Below, piece after piece: positions 5,545 to 16,453 of a stretch of DNA of 29,086 nt; position 1 is the stretch's first letter; every line of letters begins with the position of its first letter. This DNA is from a virus. The notes under the pieces are model-generated. The model worked only from the letters and a program-made list of their open reading frames with translations. It had not been told where the DNA came from and searched no databases. The position numbers and the translations under genes were made by a program. The stretch covers positions 1-29,086 of IMG/VR virus record IMGVR_UViG_3300035156_000213; one strand, written 5' to 3'.

Positions 5545-5826
5545 ATGTTTGAAGTCGTCGCCTGGAACGGTCAGACCGAGCTTGTTGTGGACGTGTTCGC
5601 CGAGTGGGGCAACGCCAACGATCGCGCGCGCGAGCTGGAAGCCAAGGATACGAAGTGCATCGCGTATTTCGCGCGGCGCGCCGAGCCTGCCTCGACGCGG
5701 ATCACGTTCAACGGCGAGATGACCGAGGCCGAGCAAGCCGAGTATGAAGCCGACTACCGGGCCGCGGCCGAGTGCGCGGCCGAGGATCGCGCCGAACGCG
5801 CGCTGTGCTCCGGCTACGGGAGCTGA
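5545..5826 (+). CDS. Small protein, first of a tandem paralogue pair (93 aa)
   Basis: It begins MFEVVAWNGQTELVVDVFAE and shares its N-terminal half of about 45 residues with the next gene (MFQVIAWNG at 5830): the V-x-AWNG, ELVVD-x-FAE and DRARELE/AT blocks match. The N-terminal half looks like an alpha-beta fold; the C-terminal part is acidic and Ala/Glu-rich (EYEADYRAAAECAAEDR). No known domain is recognised. It is the first gene after the TAGGGT promoter and its hairpin leader, with AGAGGAACC as a probable ribosome binding site. The pair looks like a local gene duplication with diverged C-termini. Confidence 0.65.
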   Translation: MFEVVAWNGQTELVVDVFAEWGNANDRARELEAKDTKCIAYFARRAEPASTRITFNGEMTEAEQAEYEADYRAAAECAAEDRAERALCSGYGS

Positions 5827-5829
5827 TCC

Positions 5830-6117
5830 ATGTTCCAAGTGATCGCCTGGAACGGCGTTAGCGAGCTTGTGGTGGACACCTTCGCCGAGCGCGGAGACGC
5901 CCAGGATCGCGCGCGCGAGCTGGCGACGCAGGATCAACACCACGTCGCTTACTCCGTACGGAAGCTGTGGCCGATTGCCGGGGCCACGTACCCCAACGGG
6001 GCCACGCTCCGCATCTATACCGGCAAGCCCCCGGCGATTTTGAACCGCTCAAACGACACGGATTTGGACCGCCGGTTTAGCGTGGATTGGATCAAGTTCA
6101 ACGTCGAGGATCGCTGA
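5830..6117 (+). CDS. Small protein, second of a tandem paralogue pair (95 aa)
   Basis: This is a paralogue of the upstream gene over the first 45 or so residues, ending near the HHVAYSVRK region. The C-terminus is different and basic-aromatic (LRIYTGKPPAILNRS, then DRRFSVDWIKFNVEDR). The gene starts three bases after the upstream stop and is followed by a strong intrinsic terminator at 6128-6159, so the two paralogues form one short transcription unit with the promoter at 5489. The function is unknown. Its place between virion genes would fit a moron-like accessory unit with its own promoter and terminator. Confidence 0.65.
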   Translation: MFQVIAWNGVSELVVDTFAERGDAQDRARELATQDQHHVAYSVRKLWPIAGATYPNGATLRIYTGKPPAILNRSNDTDLDRRFSVDWIKFNVEDR

Positions 6118-7644: not shown

Positions 7645-8637
7645 GTGACACAGCACAATGACCAGATCGTTCGTCTTTATGACACGATTTTCGATCGCGC
7701 CCCCGACACCGAAGGACTCGCGTTCTGGAACGGGGCCACCGATCGCGGCCTTAGCATGGGCGACATGGCGGATCTGTTCATCACCGCCCCTGAGTTTGCC
7801 CAGACCTACGGCCAGCCCGACAACGGCGCTTTTGTCCGCGAGATGTATGCCAACGTTCTCGATCGGCCGGGCGAAGCCGGCGGTGTGGAGTTTTGGACTC
7901 GTGTTCTGGACACGGGGCTTGCCGATCGCGGGCACATCGCTTTCGAGTTCAGCGAGAGCCCCGAGCATATCGCCCAGATGACGGCGCCGCCGCTCGGCCT
8001 GCCCCCTGGGCAGAGCGCGCCCAACCCCTCGCCCTTCCCGGAAGAGGCGACGATCCCGGAAAGCCAACTGCCCCCGCCAGCCCTCGGCTTGCCGCCGGGA
8101 CAGACGGCGCCTAACCCTTCGCCTATCCCTCCCGAGGCGCAGATACCGGAAAGCCAACTGCCTCCGGTCAGCTCGCCCCCGCCGTCCCGCATCATGCAAG
8201 GCACGGGCGGCAACGACGTGATGAACGGCGGCGCCGGCGACGACATAATCGCCGGGCTCGGCGGGCAGGACGTGATGACCGGCGGCGCTGGTTACAACGT
8301 CTTTACGTTCCCGATGCACACCTCGCAGATGAACGGCGACACCATCCATCGTTTCGACATGGACGGCAACGACGTGATTGACATTCACGGGTTGCAGGAT
8401 GGCGCCTTCACCTTCGCCCGGCCGGGCGCCCCGATGGAGTTCCTGGGCGAGATGGGCGTGGCCTGGGGGCGCGAGTTCGTCGGCGGCGGCACCCCGTCTT
8501 TCGGGTACGTCACCAATCGTCACCAGCCCACCCCCGAGCCCGATAACTGGGTGGTTTTCGATCTGAACGGCGACGCCCAGACCGACGTTACCCTGAACGT
8601 CTCGGGACAGCTCGGCGCCGACGATTTCTTGCTGTAG
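7645..8637 (+). CDS. DUF4214 - proline linker - RTX calcium-binding protein (330 aa)
   Basis: The start is GTG at 7645 with AAGGAAACAGG upstream. Residues 5-112 carry two DUF4214-like units (LYDTIFDRAPDTEGLAFW, then MYANVLDRPGEAGGVEFW), a module common in secreted RTX and surface proteins of alphaproteobacteria. Residues 116-174 form a proline-rich linker made of a 30-residue unit in two copies (GLPPGQSAPNPSP, GLPPGQTAPNPSP). Residues 186-216 are RTX nonapeptide repeats (GGNDVMNGGAGDDIIAG) that bind Ca2+ and fold outside the cell. The C-terminal 110 residues resemble the serralysin-type C-terminal domain (GDTIHRFDMDGNDVIDI). No protease motif is present. In a phage it may be an adsorption appendage or a partner of the next gene, which also has RTX repeats. 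It could instead be a protein exported by the infected host. Confidence 0.75.
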   Translation: MTQHNDQIVRLYDTIFDRAPDTEGLAFWNGATDRGLSMGDMADLFITAPEFAQTYGQPDNGAFVREMYANVLDRPGEAGGVEFWTRVLDTGLADRGHIAFEFSESPEHIAQMTAPPLGLPPGQSAPNPSPFPEEATIPESQLPPPALGLPPGQTAPNPSPIPPEAQIPESQLPPVSSPPPSRIMQGTGGNDVMNGGAGDDIIAGLGGQDVMTGGAGYNVFTFPMHTSQMNGDTIHRFDMDGNDVIDIHGLQDGAFTFARPGAPMEFLGEMGVAWGREFVGGGTPSFGYVTNRHQPTPEPDNWVVFDLNGDAQTDVTLNVSGQLGADDFLL

Positions 8638-8791: not shown

Positions 8792-11599
8792 ATGAGCGGC
8801 ACCACTCCGATTGACCAACAACGCGCCGACCGGTTGAACGCCTCCGCCACGACGATTGAGGAAAAGGTCGCCAGCATCGCGGAACAGCTCGGCGAGCTTG
8901 ACGCGGCGGCGGCCACGGTGCGGACGGTGGCGCAAGAGATCACCACGCCGCCCCCTGGCGTCATGTCCATCACGCTGACCTATCCCGATCCGTTCTACGT
9001 CGGCGCCAACTCCATCACGATCGACACCACGAACGTCGCCGAAGTCGGCATCCGTTTGCTGGACGCCAGCGGAAACCCACTCACGCAAGGCGCCGTCGAG
9101 AGTCTGGCCGTCCCAGACGCGGGCGTCACCATCCAATACAACATGCCGGTTGCCGGCGCGAAGATCCACGTTTACAGGCGGTCGGGCGGGGTCGCTGACT
9201 ATTCCGTTTCCGCTTACAGCGTTCTTTCCGTGGTGAAGCCGCGGCAGGTTTTCTTGACCTACCCGAACCCGTTTTACACGGGCGCGAACACCGTCAAGAT
9301 CACCACCACGAACGTTGATCGCGTCGGCGTTCTCGTGCAACGGCCCGATGGCACTTACGTTGCGGCACAGACCAAGGACAATCTACTTGTCCCGGCAGGC
9401 GGCCTTGATCTAGTCGTGGACGTGCCGGTTGTCGGCGCTAAAATCATGGTGTTCCCGAGCACGGGACCGGACGCGCGCGAGCTGAACCTTGCCGCGATCA
9501 CTGTTGCTGCGGCAGCGCGGCCAGTGCTCAACCGCAGCGTCACCATCACCTATCCGAACCCGTTCTACGTCGGCGTGCAAGAGATCACGGTTAACACCGT
9601 CAACGTTCCCGCCGTCTTTATCGAGGTGCAGAACTCGGCCAACGTTCCTTACCCCGATGCCGTGGTCGGGCAGGCAGTTCCCGCCGCCGGGCTGAAACAG
9701 CAAGTGAACGTCCGCGCGCCCGGCGACACCATCTTTGTCGCGGCCGGCACAGTGGACGCGAACGGCGCTATCACCCGCGACAACACGGTGTTCGCCCGCA
9801 CGGTCGCCGCAGCGGCACGCCCAGGGGCCACGGCCGGAGGCGATAGCATCACCGGGACCGCGGGCGATGATGTCATCAACGGCCTGGGCGGCAACGATAC
9901 GATCAACGGCGGCGGCGGGAATGACACCATCCGCGGCGGCCCCGGTGTGGATATCATGACTGGCGGCGCTGGTGCCAACGTGTTCGTTTTCGAGCCCGGC
10001 GACGGTGGCGATCCGCCCGTTCACGACCGCATCACGGATTTCAAGCTCGGGACGGACAAGCTCGAAGTTCCGCAGAGCTGGCCTCTTGAGTTCGAGGCCG
10101 ATGCGGCCGGCATTTGGGTGCATTACGGTCCGCACGAGAACTGGCACGATTGGGTGCAGTTGATGGGCGTTCAAACTCAGGACGCCAATCTGTTGCAGCT
10201 CAAATCGGGGACGCCGCCGCCGCCCGTGCCCGGCGGCCCGCTCAACGTGCTGGTCCGCGGGCAATCGAATGCCTTGCTCTTCGTTGATCGCGGCGGTGTC
10301 TGGACCTTCCGTGACAGACTCGCGGCGCTGACCGGGCGTGAAGTTCACATGCATTTCGCCTGGGGGCAAAATCAGGCGAACACCATCCACAGCGGCACCG
10401 GATGGATACACGAATGGATGAACGGCCTCGCGGCCGGAAATCTAGAGAATGATTTTTTGATGTTCCTCAACGGAATGAGCCCGGCAGCGAAGGCCGCGCC
10501 GTTCGTTGAGATCTGGATGCATAACGAGTACGATCAGGGGGCGGATATCACCGCCGCCAACTACGCCGCTTTGCATCGCGCCGAACGGCCGATGTGCTTG
10601 CAGGCGCTGGGGCTCACCGCAGCCAACCACCTCCGCGTGTTCGTGCCCGTGCGCTACGGGTTCGGCTCGAACTTCGAGTCTATCAAGAACGGCATGGAGT
10701 CGCTGGCCGCGGATGCTTCGTTCAACGCTCGCATGAGCTGGGCGGCTTACGGCGCCCGCATGGACGGCGGCCCGGTGCCCGAAGCCCACTTCGGCGATCA
10801 GGACACCCACGATGTAGGCTGGGCGCTGGCAAACGAGCTGGCGCCGCTGTTCAAGCAAGTCGTCACTCCGCCGCCGCCGCCGCCGCCCAACCCGAACGGC
10901 GCGCCCCGCAGCCCGCCGCCGGGCACGCCTGGGGTCTGGTTTGAAGACTTCGCCCGCCCGAACGGGCAGCACTGGGGCAAGAATATCGACGGGAACGATA
11001 TCTTTTTCTGGGGCTCCGGCGGCAATCTGGAAGGCGACAGCACCTTTACCATTCGCTGGCATGGCGGTTCCGGCGGCTGGATGACGGATTTTTGTATCGA
11101 GGGGCAACGCCAGATCGGTATGCCTAACGGCTACTGGGAATGCCGGGCGATCCTGTACGGCTGGGGTGTCGGCAGCGGTTCCGGTCCGTGCATCCTGGCG
11201 TGGCCCGGCGACTCCCATTGGAACTCGGTTGACTACGCGCCGGATTGGCAATCGCGCGAAGTGGACTTCGGCGAGATCTGGGGTAACGAACAGACTATCT
11301 ACATGGCGCCGCACTGGACGGACCGTAACAGGAGCGCCAACAACGGGTTCAGTATCTTCTTTGTGCCGAAACCCTTCGATAACTTCCAGTATCACGTCTA
11401 TGGTGGCGTGTTGCTAAACGATCGGATCATCTTCACCGTAGATGGTGACGTGATCGGCGTGGAAGAGAACCACGGCGCGCCCGACCTCGCGGGCGGCGGT
11501 GTGAACCGGACGCACGGGTTCATGAACGGGAGCCCCGAGACGCACATTCGGGTTGACTGGTTGAAGTGGACCCCCGCGCATCTGGTTACTTACGTCTAG
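8792..11599 (+). CDS. Multidomain tail spike: Ig-like repeats, RTX, SGNH esterase, GH16 hydrolase (935 aa)
   Basis: Domains in order: a helical or coiled-coil start (1-55); three related beta-domains of about 95 residues, each opening with TYPxPFYxG (63, 156, 253); RTX Ca2+-binding repeats (350-398, GGNDTINGGGGNDTIRGG) with a serralysin-like tail; an SGNH/sialate-esterase-like domain with RGQSNA (Ser492) and QDTHD (Asp671, His673); a proline linker (about 690-714); and a GH16-like domain (about 715-935) with EVDFGE at 823-828, which matches the family's ExDxxE catalytic motif (Glu823 nucleophile, Glu828 acid/base expected). Family knowledge predicts removal of acyl groups plus endo-cleavage of a beta-glucan- or galactan-type polymer. 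I infer a virion depolymerase that clears host capsule or exopolysaccharide. It follows a terminator and the other RTX gene, and ends at a terminator. A secreted, non-virion enzyme is the alternative. Confidence 0.8.
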   Translation: MSGTTPIDQQRADRLNASATTIEEKVASIAEQLGELDAAAATVRTVAQEITTPPPGVMSITLTYPDPFYVGANSITIDTTNVAEVGIRLLDASGNPLTQGAVESLAVPDAGVTIQYNMPVAGAKIHVYRRSGGVADYSVSAYSVLSVVKPRQVFLTYPNPFYTGANTVKITTTNVDRVGVLVQRPDGTYVAAQTKDNLLVPAGGLDLVVDVPVVGAKIMVFPSTGPDARELNLAAITVAAAARPVLNRSVTITYPNPFYVGVQEITVNTVNVPAVFIEVQNSANVPYPDAVVGQAVPAAGLKQQVNVRAPGDTIFVAAGTVDANGAITRDNTVFARTVAAAARPGATAGGDSITGTAGDDVINGLGGNDTINGGGGNDTIRGGPGVDIMTGGAGANVFVFEPGDGGDPPVHDRITDFKLGTDKLEVPQSWPLEFEADAAGIWVHYGPHENWHDWVQLMGVQTQDANLLQLKSGTPPPPVPGGPLNVLVRGQSNALLFVDRGGVWTFRDRLAALTGREVHMHFAWGQNQANTIHSGTGWIHEWMNGLAAGNLENDFLMFLNGMSPAAKAAPFVEIWMHNEYDQGADITAANYAALHRAERPMCLQALGLTAANHLRVFVPVRYGFGSNFESIKNGMESLAADASFNARMSWAAYGARMDGGPVPEAHFGDQDTHDVGWALANELAPLFKQVVTPPPPPPPNPNGAPRSPPPGTPGVWFEDFARPNGQHWGKNIDGNDIFFWGSGGNLEGDSTFTIRWHGGSGGWMTDFCIEGQRQIGMPNGYWECRAILYGWGVGSGSGPCILAWPGDSHWNSVDYAPDWQSREVDFGEIWGNEQTIYMAPHWTDRNRSANNGFSIFFVPKPFDNFQYHVYGGVLLNDRIIFTVDGDVIGVEENHGAPDLAGGGVNRTHGFMNGSPETHIRVDWLKWTPAHLVTYV

Positions 11600-11631: not shown

Positions 11632-11660
11632 GGGCGGCGCTTTACGGCGCCGCCCTTTTT
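11632..11660 (+). terminator. Rho-independent terminator after the spike gene
   Basis: A perfect 9-bp stem, GGGCGGCGC (11632-11640) and GCGCCGCCC (11647-11655), followed by TTTTT (11656-11660). It lies between convergent genes. In the leftward direction it is followed by a less regular pyrimidine run, so it may work both ways. Confidence 0.85.
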
Positions 11661-11673
11661 CATGGACGCCAGA

Positions 11674-11928
11674 TCAGACCGGCGAAGCGGCTACCTGCGT
11701 CACGGTGGAGCTGGCCGAGAGCGCCGCCTGAACCTCTTCGCCCACGTCTCCGCGCTCAGCCTCCGATTGTGCCCCGAGGAAGGGCGAGCGCGGCGCGTCG
11801 CCACGCTGCGTCAGGGACTGGCCCCGGAAGGGCGCATCGCCGCTCTTGCTGGTCGCCTGCCGTGTCTGGAAGGGCTGCGCTTCCTGGGCCGCTTCCTGGG
11901 CAACCGGTTCCTGTTCGTTGTCACTCAT
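11674..11928 (-). CDS. Small disordered acidic protein MSDNE-type (84 aa)
   Basis: I chose the start MSDNEQEPVAQE because GGAG lies eight bases upstream; an ATG five codons earlier is the alternative. The chain is rich in Gln, Ala, Glu and Ser with no hydrophobic core (AQEAAQEAQPFQTRQATS), so it is probably disordered. The first residues MSDNE recur in the leftward gene at 14396-14779, which is also low-complexity. It stands alone, pointing left between two rightward blocks, with its own TAGGGT promoter at 11971-12000 and the terminator at 11632-11660 behind it. That layout fits a self-contained moron-like or regulatory gene. The function is unknown. Confidence 0.5.
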   Translation of the reverse strand: MSDNEQEPVAQEAAQEAQPFQTRQATSKSGDAPFRGQSLTQRGDAPRSPFLGAQSEAERGDVGEEVQAALSASSTVTQVAASPV

Positions 11929-11970
11929 GTTGTTCTCCATCATCCGACTGCGTTCCGCGTCGGCGCAGTT

Positions 11971-12108: not shown

Positions 12109-12438
12109 ATGCCTGACGAACCGCGAGGTGAACAAACATGGTGGGTCCGGCACCTTGAAGAGCGTATCAAAAGACTGGAAACCGACCGAGATCAGCTCAG
12201 AGATGCGCTCAATACTGAGATTAGGGCCGGCGACAAGCGGATTGCCAGGCTGGACGAACACGATCGCGCTTTTGAGCGCGTCGAGGGCTGGCAACGCGAA
12301 CACGACCGCAAGCTGGAACAGCTTGTTACGAAAGAGGATTTCAAGCCGGTAAAAACCGGGCTGTGGGGCATCGTCAGCGCGGTTCTGTTGACGATTGTTG
12401 CCGGCATCCTCAAACTGTTGATGCCGGGAGTAAAGTGA
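12109..12438 (+). CDS. Coiled-coil protein with C-terminal membrane anchor (109 aa)
   Basis: Residues 15-75 are a charged coiled coil (HLEERIKRLETDRDQLRDAL) and residues 84-104 are one clear membrane segment (GLWGIVSAVLLTIVAGILKL) with a short positive tail. This is the layout of small XhlA-like or holin-associated proteins of phage lysis regions, in which a cytoplasmic coiled coil precedes a membrane anchor. The next gene starts in a TGATG overlap and is also membrane-anchored, so the two are coupled. The leftward lysis operon converges on them. A role in lysis or in membrane assembly of phage proteins is plausible but not proven. Confidence 0.6.
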   Translation: MPDEPRGEQTWWVRHLEERIKRLETDRDQLRDALNTEIRAGDKRIARLDEHDRAFERVEGWQREHDRKLEQLVTKEDFKPVKTGLWGIVSAVLLTIVAGILKLLMPGVK

Positions 12439-12962
12439 TGGAAGTCGAGCCCGTCGTGAAATCACTCACCCCGACTAGCAAAGCCGATGCGGTTGTCATG
12501 TTCGCATCTGCGCTCGTGATCTTGGGCGCTATATTTACGATATGGGAGGTGGTGGAACCAATACCGCTTTATGACGGAAAGGTTCTCTCAGTCATACCGG
12601 ACGATGGCGTTCTGGATCGCACGAAAGGCCAAGCTGCGATCATTCGGCGAGATCAATGCTCTACTAGGACAACGGAAGTAACCGTCACCAGACATTGGAT
12701 AGATGAAAGCGGCGGAATAACGCCGATGATAGAAGACACTTACCAGATAAAAAAAGGTTGCCACCCCCTCGGCCCGTTTCGCGTGTATCCGCCGGGCGCG
12801 TTGGGCGAGGGAAAGCATACCTACAGGGTTACGCTTCGCTGGTGCAACCACATGAAGTGCCTTCCCTATCGCATTCGAGATGTTGAGTTTATTGTCAAAG
12901 GCTGGCCACCGCTAAACCACCACATAAACCGCGACGACAACACGGTTCCGGGTCCGCGCTAA
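12438..12962 (+). CDS. Single-pass membrane protein with exported domain (174 aa)
   Basis: The start overlaps the upstream stop (TGATG). One membrane segment lies at about residues 18-39 (AVVMFASALVILGAIFTIW). The rest, about 135 residues, should lie outside the inner membrane and looks like a beta-sandwich (RTTEVTVTRHWIDESGG, then KHTYRVTLRWCNHMKCLPYR). It has Cys residues that could form disulphides. No family is recognised. The DNA is less GC-rich than the surroundings. Its stop overlaps, tail to tail, the end of the leftward operon. An anchored periplasmic role in lysis, exclusion or host surface change can be imagined; none is shown. Confidence 0.6.
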   Translation: MEVEPVVKSLTPTSKADAVVMFASALVILGAIFTIWEVVEPIPLYDGKVLSVIPDDGVLDRTKGQAAIIRRDQCSTRTTEVTVTRHWIDESGGITPMIEDTYQIKKGCHPLGPFRVYPPGALGEGKHTYRVTLRWCNHMKCLPYRIRDVEFIVKGWPPLNHHINRDDNTVPGPR

Positions 12963-13087
12963 ACTCTAGGGCCGCGGCCGATCCGATCGTCGCTCGCAGC
13001 TTGCGCGATCTTTATTACGACCGGCCACAAGAGATCGCGGATTGCGAGCGCGACCAGAATAGCGATGACAGTTTCCCAGAAACCCAC
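12959..13087 (-). CDS. Small single-pass membrane protein (42 aa)
   Basis: A GTG start at 13087 is set by GGAGG about seven bases upstream, just after the protease gene stop. A longer frame starts inside the protease gene and lacks such a signal. The protein is MGFWETVIAILVALAIRDLL followed by a hydrophobic stretch and a charged tail (SDDRIGRGPRV). One membrane segment spans residues 5-28. It is the last gene of the leftward operon and meets the rightward gene 12438-12962 with a 4-bp tail-to-tail overlap. It could be a small holin-like or spanin-like factor. No family is recognised. Confidence 0.55.
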   Translation of the reverse strand: MGFWETVIAILVALAIRDLLWPVVIKIAQAASDDRIGRGPRV

Positions 13088-13103
13088 CGCAAGCCTCCGA
13101 TGC

Positions 13104-13934
13104 TTAAACCTTCGTGTTTTCGATCGCATCCAATACCAGAAAGTCGCTCGCGTGTTCTGACATGAGCATGTCATACGAGACGTAAAAATAACCGTTGATC
13201 TGGTTGTTGACACCCCAGCTATTCAGACAGAACGCAAGGCGTTCGTCATCGTCATAGTCCATGGCGACGACATAGTGACCGCCATACTTGTGTTCCTGCC
13301 CGACCGGCGGCCGAAGCACGTTGACCGGCTTTCCCGTCTCCCGATCGTAAAAGCTTTCATACACCAGAAAGCCGAACCCGACCGGTTTCCGCATGGAGAT
13401 TGCCGCGCGGATATCCGACATGGTGCGCGGGACGAACTTATAGCCTTCGCACTGCCGTATCGAGGCGTTCTTTACAACGTAGTCGGTTGGCTCTTTCTGC
13501 GAACGGTGTCCAGCAGGGTATACCCAGTCCGGACCGGCGGGCGCACCGCTGTAATCCCAAATGCTTTCGATCGGCGCGCCAAGTTTATTGATGACTTTCG
13601 CGGCGTCGCGCGGAAAGCAGCCGGTGTCGCTTCGCTGCCAGCCCTGGATCTTGCGCGCATGATAATAAATGAACGAGCGCGAAAACATGAGTGCCGTTTT
13701 GTAGCCCGCCACCTTGCGGTAAAAGGCATACTGCGCCGCGATGCCGTTCCCGACGCACGAGCCCTCTTGCATCTGATCGTAAGGCGCGTGCGGATGGTCC
13801 TGACTGTTCTTGAACACCCTCGGCGCCGTCTTCATCACCGATCGCGGCGCGCGAAAGATCTCATCTAGCGCATCGCGCTCTTGCGGGCGCCAGCCGAACC
13901 GGCGGTTGTTTGGGTGACGTTCTAGAACCGGCAT
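13104..13934 (-). CDS. Papain-like cysteine protease (C1-type), phage-encoded (276 aa)
   Basis: The catalytic set of the papain family is readable: Gln54 and Cys60 in QMQEGSCVGN, His220 in KYGGHYVVAMDYDD, and Asn238 in CLNSWG. The spacing and the GH-YVV-A and NSWG motifs are typical for the bacterial C1 peptidase branch. There is no signal peptide or long propeptide (about 50 residues precede the Cys region), so it acts in the cytoplasm unless released at lysis. Its start overlaps the 3' end of the nuclease gene by 13 bases, so the two are co-translated. In phages such proteases are uncommon. Possible jobs are virion maturation, attack on a host protein, or digestion of proteins during lysis. 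The family is fairly sure, the target unknown. Confidence 0.8.
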   Translation of the reverse strand: MPVLERHPNNRRFGWRPQERDALDEIFRAPRSVMKTAPRVFKNSQDHPHAPYDQMQEGSCVGNGIAAQYAFYRKVAGYKTALMFSRSFIYYHARKIQGWQRSDTGCFPRDAAKVINKLGAPIESIWDYSGAPAGPDWVYPAGHRSQKEPTDYVVKNASIRQCEGYKFVPRTMSDIRAAISMRKPVGFGFLVYESFYDRETGKPVNVLRPPVGQEHKYGGHYVVAMDYDDDERLAFCLNSWGVNNQINGYFYVSYDMLMSEHASDFLVLDAIENTKV

Positions 13935-14308
13935 GTGCGTTTCTCTCCGAAGTTCGGAACGCCAAGTTCCTCGGTTATGAGAATATCAGCAACGGATCGG
14001 CCGCTCGGCCGATGCGTCACGACGGCGAGAGTCCGGCCGCGGGCATCCTTGCCGATGCCGCGGAACCGCACACCCTCGGCCGCGAGCTGGCGCGTGCGCT
14101 CGGCGGCGCGCTCGCCCGCGGTGCGCTCGGCGTCGCGGCGCGGACCAACGGGGCAGAGGAAGTTTTGCGTTTCGGCAGCGTCCACACCGTAGATCCGATA
14201 CACCACGCGCCGATAAGAGATCGTGTCGCCGTCAATGGCGCGCGGCTCGCCCTGGGCGAAGGCTGGCCCGGCGGCCAGCAACGCTACAATGCCCAGAGCG
14301 AGGCGCAT
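13922..14308 (-). CDS. Secreted thermonuclease-like (SNase family) nuclease (128 aa)
   Basis: A signal peptide covers residues 1-18 (MRLALGIVALLAAGPAFA, cut before QG). The mature part has the staphylococcal nuclease signatures: AIDGDTI, YRIYGVDAAE (Arg38, Asp43, Glu46) and DARGRTLAVV (Arg90/Arg92). These contribute to Ca2+ binding and phosphodiester cleavage in the family. At 110 or so mature residues it is short but complete. Its ribosome site TAGGAG lies just upstream, and the next gene (the protease) overlaps its end. An exported nuclease in a phage lysis operon could degrade extracellular or released DNA, or act in the periplasm against incoming rival DNA. Both are inferences. Confidence 0.8.
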   Translation of the reverse strand: MRLALGIVALLAAGPAFAQGEPRAIDGDTISYRRVVYRIYGVDAAETQNFLCPVGPRRDAERTAGERAAERTRQLAAEGVRFRGIGKDARGRTLAVVTHRPSGRSVADILITEELGVPNFGEKRTCRF

Positions 14309-14318
14309 GGTCGCACTC

Positions 14319-14399
14319 CTAACCGGCGAACACGGCGACTAGAACGGCCGCCAGCACGAACGCCAGTGCCCCGGCGATCTCGCTGGGCGGGATCTTCAC
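14319..14399 (-). CDS. Tiny membrane protein (26 aa)
   Basis: The GTG start overlaps the upstream stop (GTGA at 14399-14396), and a TAG ends the frame ten bases before the nuclease start. The product opens MKIPPSEIAGALAFVLAAVL and continues as one membrane span to the end. The chaining at both ends supports it as a real gene. Function unknown; it may tune holin activity, as other tiny membrane proteins in lysis clusters do. Confidence 0.5.
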   Translation of the reverse strand: MKIPPSEIAGALAFVLAAVLVAVFAG

Positions 14400-14779
14400 C
14401 CCTCTTGCGCCTTCGCGTCGGGCTCGGGCGCGTCCTCGCGGGCCGCGGCCTCGGGCGCTTCCGGGCTGGGCTGAGTCGCGGCCTGCCGGAACGCCTCGGC
14501 CTGGGCGCGCTCCATGTTTGCCGCCTCCTGCGTCGCCTGCGGCGACATGGCGCCGCCCGGCTGGGCGATCGGAAGCTCGGTGGCAGGCGCGCTGTGCTCG
14601 GCCGTCCCGGTTTCGCCGAAGCCGAGCGCCGCCCGCTCTTCCGCCCGCAGCCGGGCCGCCTCGGCCTGTTCTGGCGTCGGCGGGGTCACGGTGCCCTCGC
14701 CGCGGATCTCGGGAGCGGGAAGGCCGCCGGGTTGCGGGGCCTCGGCGCCGGGTTGCGCTGTGCTTTCGTTGTCGCTCAT
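14396..14779 (-). CDS. Ala/Pro/Glu-rich disordered protein, MSDNE-type (127 aa)
   Basis: The start MSDNESTAQPGAEAPQPGG is chosen because AGAGGAA lies upstream; the frame is open further, through the 64-bp gap. The protein is made almost only of Ala, Pro, Glu, Gln and Gly, with one helical stretch (EQAEAARLRAEERAALGFGE), and should be disordered in large part. The MSDNE start and composition resemble the lone leftward gene at 11674-11928. It directly follows the holin-transglycosylase gene in the operon. No family is recognised. It might be a low-complexity virion or scaffold-like protein, which would be odd within a lysis operon. Confidence 0.55.
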   Translation of the reverse strand: MSDNESTAQPGAEAPQPGGLPAPEIRGEGTVTPPTPEQAEAARLRAEERAALGFGETGTAEHSAPATELPIAQPGGAMSPQATQEAANMERAQAEAFRQAATQPSPEAPEAAAREDAPEPDAKAQEG

Positions 14780-14843: not shown

Positions 14844-16265
14844 TCAAGCCATCGCCTCTCCGGTGAACGCCGTGGCGAAGCTCGGCGCCTCGCCTTCATC
14901 CGCCCAGCCGGCAACCCGGCTTTCCCGCATGGCGTCGCCGAACCACCGTGCGAACTCGGTGCAATGCTTGCCGGTTTCCGCAGGCCAGCACACGAGACGC
15001 CAGGGGTTGCGCGGGCTTTGCGCCTGCCGGATGCCGCCCGCGTTGTAGGCCGCGGCCACTAGGATCGGATCTAGCCCGGTTTTCGGGCGCTGGTGTGCGA
15101 TGTAGGCCGTTCCAGCGTCGAGCGACAAAGCCGGGTCAAACAGCTCTTTGACATCAACCGGCCGCCCGAGCATGTCGCCGGCGGTGTCTGTCAAGGTTTG
15201 CATGAGGCCGCCCGACTCTCGGCGGTCGGGCTCAACCCGGTGCGCGTTCGGGTCGCCGTGGCTTTCGGTGGCGACGGTGGCGACGATCAGCTCAACAGGC
15301 ACGTTCCACTTTTTGCCGGCGCTCAGGATCAGCGGGCCATACTCGCGCCAGATCTCGCGCACGGTTTCGGGCTCGCCCACGGTGCGGTGCGCCGCCCCGC
15401 CCGTCGAGATCCCGTCCGCCGTCAACCGCCACACCACCGAGCCCGGAAACCTGTTGTGCGGCCGAGCCAGGGCCGCGAGCTGGACCGGCGACAGACCCGC
15501 GACGCCGCGGGTAGGCGCCACGGGCCGCGCGGGCCGCCCAGGCAAGGCCGCAGGCAGCGCAGGTGGCGCCGGGGGCACCACGACCACCGGCGGCGCCGCA
15601 ACAGGCCCCACACCTTTGCCCAGGGGCTCGGCGAGCCCTTGAAGGGCATCTTTGATGGTTTGGTCCTTGCTCTGAGAGCTGCTAGAGCTGCCAAAGTAGA
15701 ACCCGGACACCTGATCGGCGCGCGATGCCTGCCGGCCGATCACGACGCCGATAATCGTGAAGATCGCGTTTGAAAGGATCGGGTCAATCTGGATGCGGAA
15801 AAAGCCGCTTGCTACCAGCAAGCCGAGGCCGCCGCCCGTCATGATGTAAGCGAGTACGCGATCGTTCCAGAGGATCGTTTTCCCGACTTCAAAGATCGCA
15901 GGCGCGAGCCCGGTGTCGAGCGCGCTCTTGCGTGCGTCGGACCGGTCAAGCTGGGCGAGCTGTTCAAACTTGAACGGTAGCTCGGCCTCGATCCTCTTTA
16001 GTTCCAGCTCGGCCTTTTGCAGCACTTCCCGCAAGTTCGGGTCGCTTTCGTGCTTTGCGACAATCTGAACGATCTGTTCATTGGACAACGCGGCGCGGCC
16101 GTTGGGGAGCTGGGCGGCCGGCGCCTCGCCATCGGGCAGAAACTGCGCCAGCCATGGCGTGACCGCGGCGGAGGCGATCAGGCCGAAGGGCGGCGGCAGC
16201 AACCCTTTCAACAACGTCGGCGCCGCGACTTTCAGGACGGACGCCACGACGGGAGGAATGTCCAT
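14844..16265 (-). CDS. Holin fused to lytic transglycosylase (473 aa)
   Basis: The start MDIPPVVASVLK has AGGTGG upstream; a longer frame is unsupported. The N-terminal 200 residues match the 3TM-type phage holins: a hydrophobic start, a charged helix with LDRSDARKSALD (about 106-117), two membrane segments (about 137-156 and 163-177) and the FYFGSSSSSQ end seen in stand-alone holins. A proline/alanine linker follows (about 215-265). The C-terminal part is a GH23/SLT-type transglycosylase with catalytic Glu334 (ATESHG), GLMQTL (353-358) and AYNAGG (about 406-411), which cuts peptidoglycan glycan strands. A normal holin is a third of this size. The fusion would put pore-forming and cell-wall-cutting parts on one chain, probably with the enzyme reaching the periplasm from the membrane. 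Confidence 0.8.
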   Translation of the reverse strand: MDIPPVVASVLKVAAPTLLKGLLPPPFGLIASAAVTPWLAQFLPDGEAPAAQLPNGRAALSNEQIVQIVAKHESDPNLREVLQKAELELKRIEAELPFKFEQLAQLDRSDARKSALDTGLAPAIFEVGKTILWNDRVLAYIMTGGGLGLLVASGFFRIQIDPILSNAIFTIIGVVIGRQASRADQVSGFYFGSSSSSQSKDQTIKDALQGLAEPLGKGVGPVAAPPVVVVPPAPPALPAALPGRPARPVAPTRGVAGLSPVQLAALARPHNRFPGSVVWRLTADGISTGGAAHRTVGEPETVREIWREYGPLILSAGKKWNVPVELIVATVATESHGDPNAHRVEPDRRESGGLMQTLTDTAGDMLGRPVDVKELFDPALSLDAGTAYIAHQRPKTGLDPILVAAAYNAGGIRQAQSPRNPWRLVCWPAETGKHCTEFARWFGDAMRESRVAGWADEGEAPSFATAFTGEAMA

Positions 16266-16288
16266 GTTCCACCTTTCTCTGAACGGCA

Positions 16289-16453
16289 TCATTCGCTTTG
16301 CACCGGCGCGTCGCACTTGCAGCGAGTGCCAACGAAGCCGGCAATGAGCGTCACGCCGAGGGGTGCCCAGCCAACGCGGCCGTCTATCCATTCAATCGTC
16401 GTGAGAACGCCCATGGAAAAGACTATGACCGTGCGGGCGATAGCGTCGCTCAT
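16289..16453 (-). CDS. Small membrane protein upstream of the holin-lysin (54 aa)
   Basis: The start overlaps the upstream stop (ATGA at 16453-16450) and the stop lies 23 bases before the holin-transglycosylase start. The product starts MSDAIARTVIVFSMGVL and has two short hydrophobic stretches (about 5-20 and 29-42) and CKC near its end. It could be a small holin or antiholin partner. It is supported by the coupling and the hydrophobic pattern, not by homology. Confidence 0.5.
   Translation of the reverse strand: MSDAIARTVIVFSMGVLTTIEWIDGRVGWAPLGVTLIAGFVGTRCKCDAPVQSE

Follow-up and report, generated by a model that had tools for sequence, protein, structure and literature searches.

The window analyzed here, a linear IMG/VR record of 29,086 bases, encodes on its minus strand a papain-family cysteine peptidase (C1A, xylellain-type; 13104..13934; 276 aa, ATG start) that lies within a compact lysis operon. 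The enzyme belongs to a family already known from phages, within which it is divergent. We put at about 50% the probability that it is a late cytosolic proenzyme, released together with the lysin and digesting host proteins during lysis. Peptidases of the same family adjoin, or are fused to, endolysins in several unrelated phages.

Catalytic set and fold of the peptidase

Translation of the ORF gave the complete catalytic set Gln54/Cys60/His220/Asn238, exactly as listed in the original prediction. The sequence follows the Peptidase C1 pattern (an oxyanion Gln, Cys six residues further on, His, and Asn238 followed by SWG), and all four residues are invariant in two alignments with relatives (A1 and A5); the set is more than a chance motif. 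The protein matched the Pfam family Peptidase_C1 (PF00112) with 26.5 bits against a curated cut-off of 20.7, in an alignment that spans residues 137-255 only (the His/Asn half), as well as PHROG 16701, a peptidase family (1.5e-9). The sole strong match to a solved structure was xylellain of Xylella fastidiosa (PDB 3ois; E 1e-36, residues 4-271), with 31-32% identity over the full length.

An AlphaFold2 model based on 69 aligned sequences was obtained with high confidence (pLDDT 92, pTM 0.90). Foldseek ranked 3ois at the top (TM 0.90), and VIA-align superposed the model and 3ois over 265 residues with a Z score of 38 and an rmsd of 1.7. The next structural matches were procathepsins and papain, and the papain fold of the model is reflected in Z scores of 22-38 to xylellain, cathepsins and papain. 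Since the model superposes well on 3ois, the four catalytic residues, whose placement was judged by superposition and alignment, are predicted to sit in the papain fold and not far apart, the concern raised with the original prediction. Sequence, profile and fold agree on the papain-like protease that had been proposed.

A pro-segment occupies approximately residues 10-45 at the N-terminus. It is included in the alignment of model residues 1-273 to residues 24-290 of 3ois, is modelled with a pLDDT of 86-96 at residues 11-40, and contains the conserved residues G14, W15, D21 and D24. By analogy with xylellain, this segment would block the active site. Xylellain is also reported to bind a regulatory ribonucleotide outside the active site. 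No signal peptide is evident in the window peptidase, and Pfam and structure comparison identified a single C1 domain, with no peptidoglycan-hydrolase or wall-binding domain. Xylellain itself is a bacterial enzyme whose substrate is unknown (PMC12090721); the window peptidase differs from it in being encoded in a lysis operon and in its many changes at near-invariant positions.

By these changes it stands out as the most divergent sequence in a comparison of 71 homologues, with all catalytic residues kept. Compared with 70 relatives, it deviates at 21 of 68 near-invariant columns, versus 11 for the next most divergent sequence and a median of 1, a contrast that is somewhat exaggerated, as the comparison set was collected by conserved patterns and thus favours typical sequences. 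Its branch in the tree is approximately twelve times the median length, which makes its placement unsure; viral and bacterial copies are intermixed in this tree. The GC content of the gene is 0.569, compared to a window mean of 0.64; across this gene and two convergent plus-strand genes (described below), values range over 0.53-0.57. Such low GC content would fit acquisition but does not prove it.

The lysis operon

The C1 gene is the fifth of six in a tightly packed minus-strand run, in the order TM/SLT lysin, disordered protein, 26-aa TM peptide, secreted SNase, C1 and 42-aa TM peptide. The lysin (14844..16391; 515 aa) combines an N-terminal TM/holin-like region with a C-terminal SLT transglycosylase domain (PF01464, 1.4e-16; phrog_1544), and its true start is probably a later ATG in this ORF. 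It is followed by a 127-aa Pro/Ala/Glu-rich protein (14396..14779), probably disordered and without a Pfam family, and by a predicted single-TM peptide of 26 aa (14319..14399), inferred from sequence, whose gene has a GTG start and overlaps the stop of the preceding one. The SNase-type nuclease (13922..14308; 128 aa) carries the signal peptide MRLALGIVALLAAGPAFA and, as judged by eye, the DGDT / R..D..E / GR catalytic pattern; its profile matches were PF00565 (E 0.009, under the cut-off) and the endonuclease family phrog_452 (0.002).

The C1 gene begins with an ATG within the SNase gene, the two overlapping by 13 bases. A Shine-Dalgarno-like GGAGAG (13943..13948, minus strand) is located just upstream of both this ATG and the SNase stop, and the 18 bases upstream of the C1 start read cttcggagagaaacgcac. 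The 13-base overlap and the internal Shine-Dalgarno sequence argue for the translational chaining to a secreted nuclease that had been postulated. Directly downstream of C1 there is a GTG-started gene for a predicted single-TM peptide of 42 aa (12959..13087, minus strand; GGAGG upstream), which is the in-frame tail of ORF 12959-13213. Neither of the two tiny TM ORFs had been mentioned in the original prediction. C1 and the TM/SLT lysin are thus contiguous on one strand, separated by short gaps or overlaps, with C1 downstream of the holin-lysin, as had been stated. A sigma-70 promoter scan gave no match.

Two plus-strand genes face this run. The first (12109..12438), convergent with the operon, encodes an XhlA/DUF2951-like coiled coil with a C-terminal TM segment and is a candidate holin component (PF11166, 2.3e-5, just under the cut-off; phrog_276; phrog_1193, hemolysin, 0.0036). 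The second (12438..12962), which abuts the 42-aa peptide gene, encodes an N-terminal TM helix and a beta-rich domain; a search for relatives of this orphan found none, and its model is of low confidence (pLDDT 57). It was considered as a chagasin-type (I42) inhibitor and was not recognised as one; given its lack of relatives and poor model, it might nevertheless be a divergent inhibitor. I42 inhibitor genes are found one to two genes past C1 on Deinococcus and Priestia plasmids (L005:3020-3331, L007:2246-2563).

Several other features of the window were recorded. The acidic, probably disordered proteins encoded on the minus strand at 11674-11943 and 14396-14779 share an MSDNE start and are possible distant duplicates. 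Tandem paralogues of 93 and 95 aa (MFEVVAWNGQTELVVD... and MFQVIAWNGVSELVVD...) are encoded on the plus strand at 5545-5826 and 5830-6117. A DUF4214+RTX protein (7645-8637, plus strand) precedes a 935-aa RTX-containing tail-fibre-like protein (8792-11599, plus strand), past whose gene an all-GC hairpin of nine pairs (11632-11655), beside a T-rich stretch, is likely a terminator.

C1 genes and endolysins in other phages

The search for phage homologues and their gene neighbours that had been proposed to check the original prediction yielded homologues, some of them beside or fused to endolysins. In Alicyclobacillus phage MMB025, an HNH gene is followed by a single ORF, annotated as an endolysin, that comprises C1, a GH25-type endolysin and peptidoglycan-binding domains; the C1 domain thus lies in a lysis protein beside an HNH gene, whereas the window peptidase stands alone. 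In contig L196, a Phage_holin_4_1 gene, a C1::Amidase_2 fusion (487-aa ORF) and a gene for a 62-aa TM protein follow one another.

Besides these fusions, holin or endolysin genes adjoin C1 in about a dozen phages. The order in Thermoanaerobacterium phage THSA-485A is HNH, endolysin and C1 (peptidase C1A, Tsac_2838), with a 16-base gap; this arrangement resembles the window in that C1 adjoins an endolysin with a nuclease gene just upstream, but its C1 is 24% identical to that of the window, its endolysin is of the GH25 type and its host is Thermoanaerobacterium. In ctsTn925, C1 lies upstream of xhlA and an R21-like endolysin, and in L039 a lysozyme gene overlaps C1, the start of which is uncertain as the ORF was called too long. 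Further arrangements are C1, BhlA holin, Amidase_2 and holin (L027); holin-like protein, Amidase_2, TM proteins, a lipoprotein with an HNH-like motif (E 0.025, under the cut-off) and C1 (L053); C1, Amidase_2, TM, HNH and TM (L210); and C1, then a coiled-coil/TM protein and lysozyme (L245, L250, L260). C1 occurs with M15 peptidases in L246 and L271, and L271 also encodes, next to C1, a 169-aa TM protein related to the holin-like region of the window lysin. A nuclease gene adjoins C1 or the endolysin in the window, L053, THSA-485A, MMB025 and L210. The four catalytic residues are kept in 14 of 14 lysis-linked C1 proteins, and no signal peptide is evident in the first 28 residues of any of them. 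The gene order in the window, together with these adjoining and fused endolysins in unrelated phages, supports the assignment to a phage lysis operon.

Two sets of C1 loci were compared. The neighbours in set 1 (53 distinct viral C1 genes) belonged most often to RNA ligase, terminase and methyltransferase families, while endolysin, amidase and tail families stood near the top of the set 2 tally. An initial conclusion of no lysis link, drawn from the first neighbour tally, was outweighed by locus-by-locus reading and by endolysin scans of whole records, which covered Amidase_2 and phage lysozyme in both sets, and SLT and M15 in set 1 only. C1 and an endolysin lay within 1 kb of each other in 9 of the 23 viral records containing both, compared to 2.0 expected from random placement (P ~2e-5), with a 1-kb cut-off picked after the data had been seen and with some contigs of common descent (L250/L260). 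By itself, set 1 gave 2 such records versus 0.75 expected (P 0.17, not significant), and set 2 gave 7 versus 1.3 expected (significant). Set 2 had been seeded with C1 sequences that included lysis-linked ones; the excess therefore relates to that portion of the C1 family. Firmer evidence for a lysis link than the distance test comes from the two fusions and from the independent types of endolysin. It should be noted that many other phage C1 genes are located away from lysis genes. A partial literature search found no published link between C1 peptidases and lysis, including the C1::amidase and C1::GH25 fusions.

Proposed role, alternatives and distribution

The window peptidase would be made late from the lysis operon and kept in the cytosol with the lysin, probably held inactive by its N-terminal pro-segment, as in xylellain. 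Opening of the inner membrane by the holin may let protease and lysin out together; the matured protease would then cleave host proteins and the SNase nucleic acid, and clearance of the proteinaceous envelope and cell contents would aid the escape of progeny. Among the targets originally suggested (the virion, a host defence or division protein, or bulk protein of the dying cell), digestion of host proteins at lysis is favoured over the rival role in the tail or virion; no pointer to a specific defence or division protein was found. The absence of a cell-wall domain, the set 1 neighbours and the non-significant distance result of that set weigh against a role in lysis.

The usual parts list of phage lysis comprises holin, peptidoglycan hydrolase and spanin. 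That a protease with a complete active site recurs beside or inside endolysins across unrelated phages suggests that exit also involves attack on host protein, and proteolysis may have been overlooked in this step. We tentatively suggest, as a possibility less probable than its converse, that papain-type proteases are a recurrent lysis factor of phages, a third class that has not yet been recognised. Such co-lysins would cleave proteins of the envelope or the cell, in many cases in combination with a nuclease and in some as part of an endolysin fusion. Their targets might be proteins that anchor the outer membrane to peptidoglycan in Gram-negative hosts, and proteins of the wall or S-layer in Gram-positive ones.

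The strongest rival to the lysis role, which we regard as rather unlikely for the window enzyme, is a tail-tip protease, built into or riding on the tail and cutting host surface proteins at adsorption. By eye, the C1 ORFs of L245, L250, L260, L271 and L210 end in DUF4214-like or Ig-like tails; they come right after tail-fibre genes, and for L245, L260, L271 and L210 a tail role fits equally well. Tail and tail-fibre families are also among the commonest set 2 neighbours, and the window encodes the DUF4214+RTX and large RTX tail-fibre-like proteins. However, the window peptidase is a bare domain encoded on the strand opposite to the tail genes and joined to lysis genes, and the endolysin fusions of MMB025 and L196 favour lysis. 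The virions of phage XacN1 are reported to contain a chitinase, a lipase and one M23 peptidase, with its C1 peptidase ORF382 unnamed among them (PMC5852040). Unlikely, too, is an accessory protease (a moron) that serves to take over the host or to counter its defences; it would cut specific intracellular host proteins and have only an incidental place in the operon. Such a function would suit the many phage C1 genes found among replication, packaging or tRNA genes and in jumbo phages, the intermixed tree, the independent gains reported for xylellain-type C1A genes in Myoviridae, Siphoviridae and Mimiviridae (PMC10380794), and the GC-poor window gene. It is at odds with the excess of C1 genes adjoining or fused to endolysins, the tight gene overlap within a late-type cassette and the retained pro-segment.

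An auxiliary lysin acting on wall or cross-link peptides instead of proteins is improbable. The fusions to Amidase_2 and GH25-type endolysin domains would accord with it, and other papain-fold families, NlpC/P60 and CHAP, hydrolyse the wall (PMC10318531); these are, however, families distinct from C1, and the full Gln/Cys/His/Asn set and the closeness to xylellain and procathepsins typify protein endopeptidases. Least credible of all is a catalytically dead or decaying passenger. The extreme divergence and very long branch of the window peptidase might suggest decay, but drift would not spare exactly the catalytic residues, the unbroken frame, the good ribosome-binding site and the confident fold, all of which are retained.

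With the window peptidase (P0001) as the query, C1 peptidases were found in 3 of 50,697 annotated phage records, and with a more typical relative (L011) in 23, of which 15 are Lak megaphages. The described rarity of C1 proteases in phages therefore holds by number of records, but two seeded scans of viral contigs returned 222 and 153 relatives. Among bacteria, at least 549 relatives were counted. Of 385 genomes sampled from the class of G001 (the genome behind L090), 10 had a match, and queries with P0001 and the tail protein P0008 gave distant matches only. As xylellain-type C1 genes of tailed phages are already published (PMC10380794), this kind of enzyme is known. C1 peptidases are also encoded by the jumbo phages XacN1 (ORF382; PMC5852040) and FLC9 (gp163) and by LR756511; the latter two copies are confirmed relatives of P0001. 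No annotated lysis genes lie beside FLC9 gp163, and the LR756511 record carries no annotation. Scans of viral contigs with the single sequences of P0001, P0008, the lysin, the SNase and the TM-beta protein found no close relatives, and megablast of the first 25 kb of the window against phages gave no match. No sister phage was found for checking conserved gene order around C1, and the sister tail modules (MinM1, L189, L190) have no recognisable counterpart of the C1/lysis block.

Some further loci met in the searches deserve mention. One viral contig carries two tandem C1 peptidase genes (L017:9612-11323). In another (L041:1893-3946), a C1 gene precedes genes for two TM proteins and for a class-3 lipase (PF01764, 1.7e-9), and a third locus (L270:4668-7061) encodes a 797-aa protein with a C1 domain in front and a hydrolase-like C-terminal part (GHSAG). 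Finally, an Amidase_2 frame at 210445-210819 of G462 (the L243 record), a 232-kb viral contig, contains four in-frame TGA codons, and this contig may represent a stop-recoded phage.
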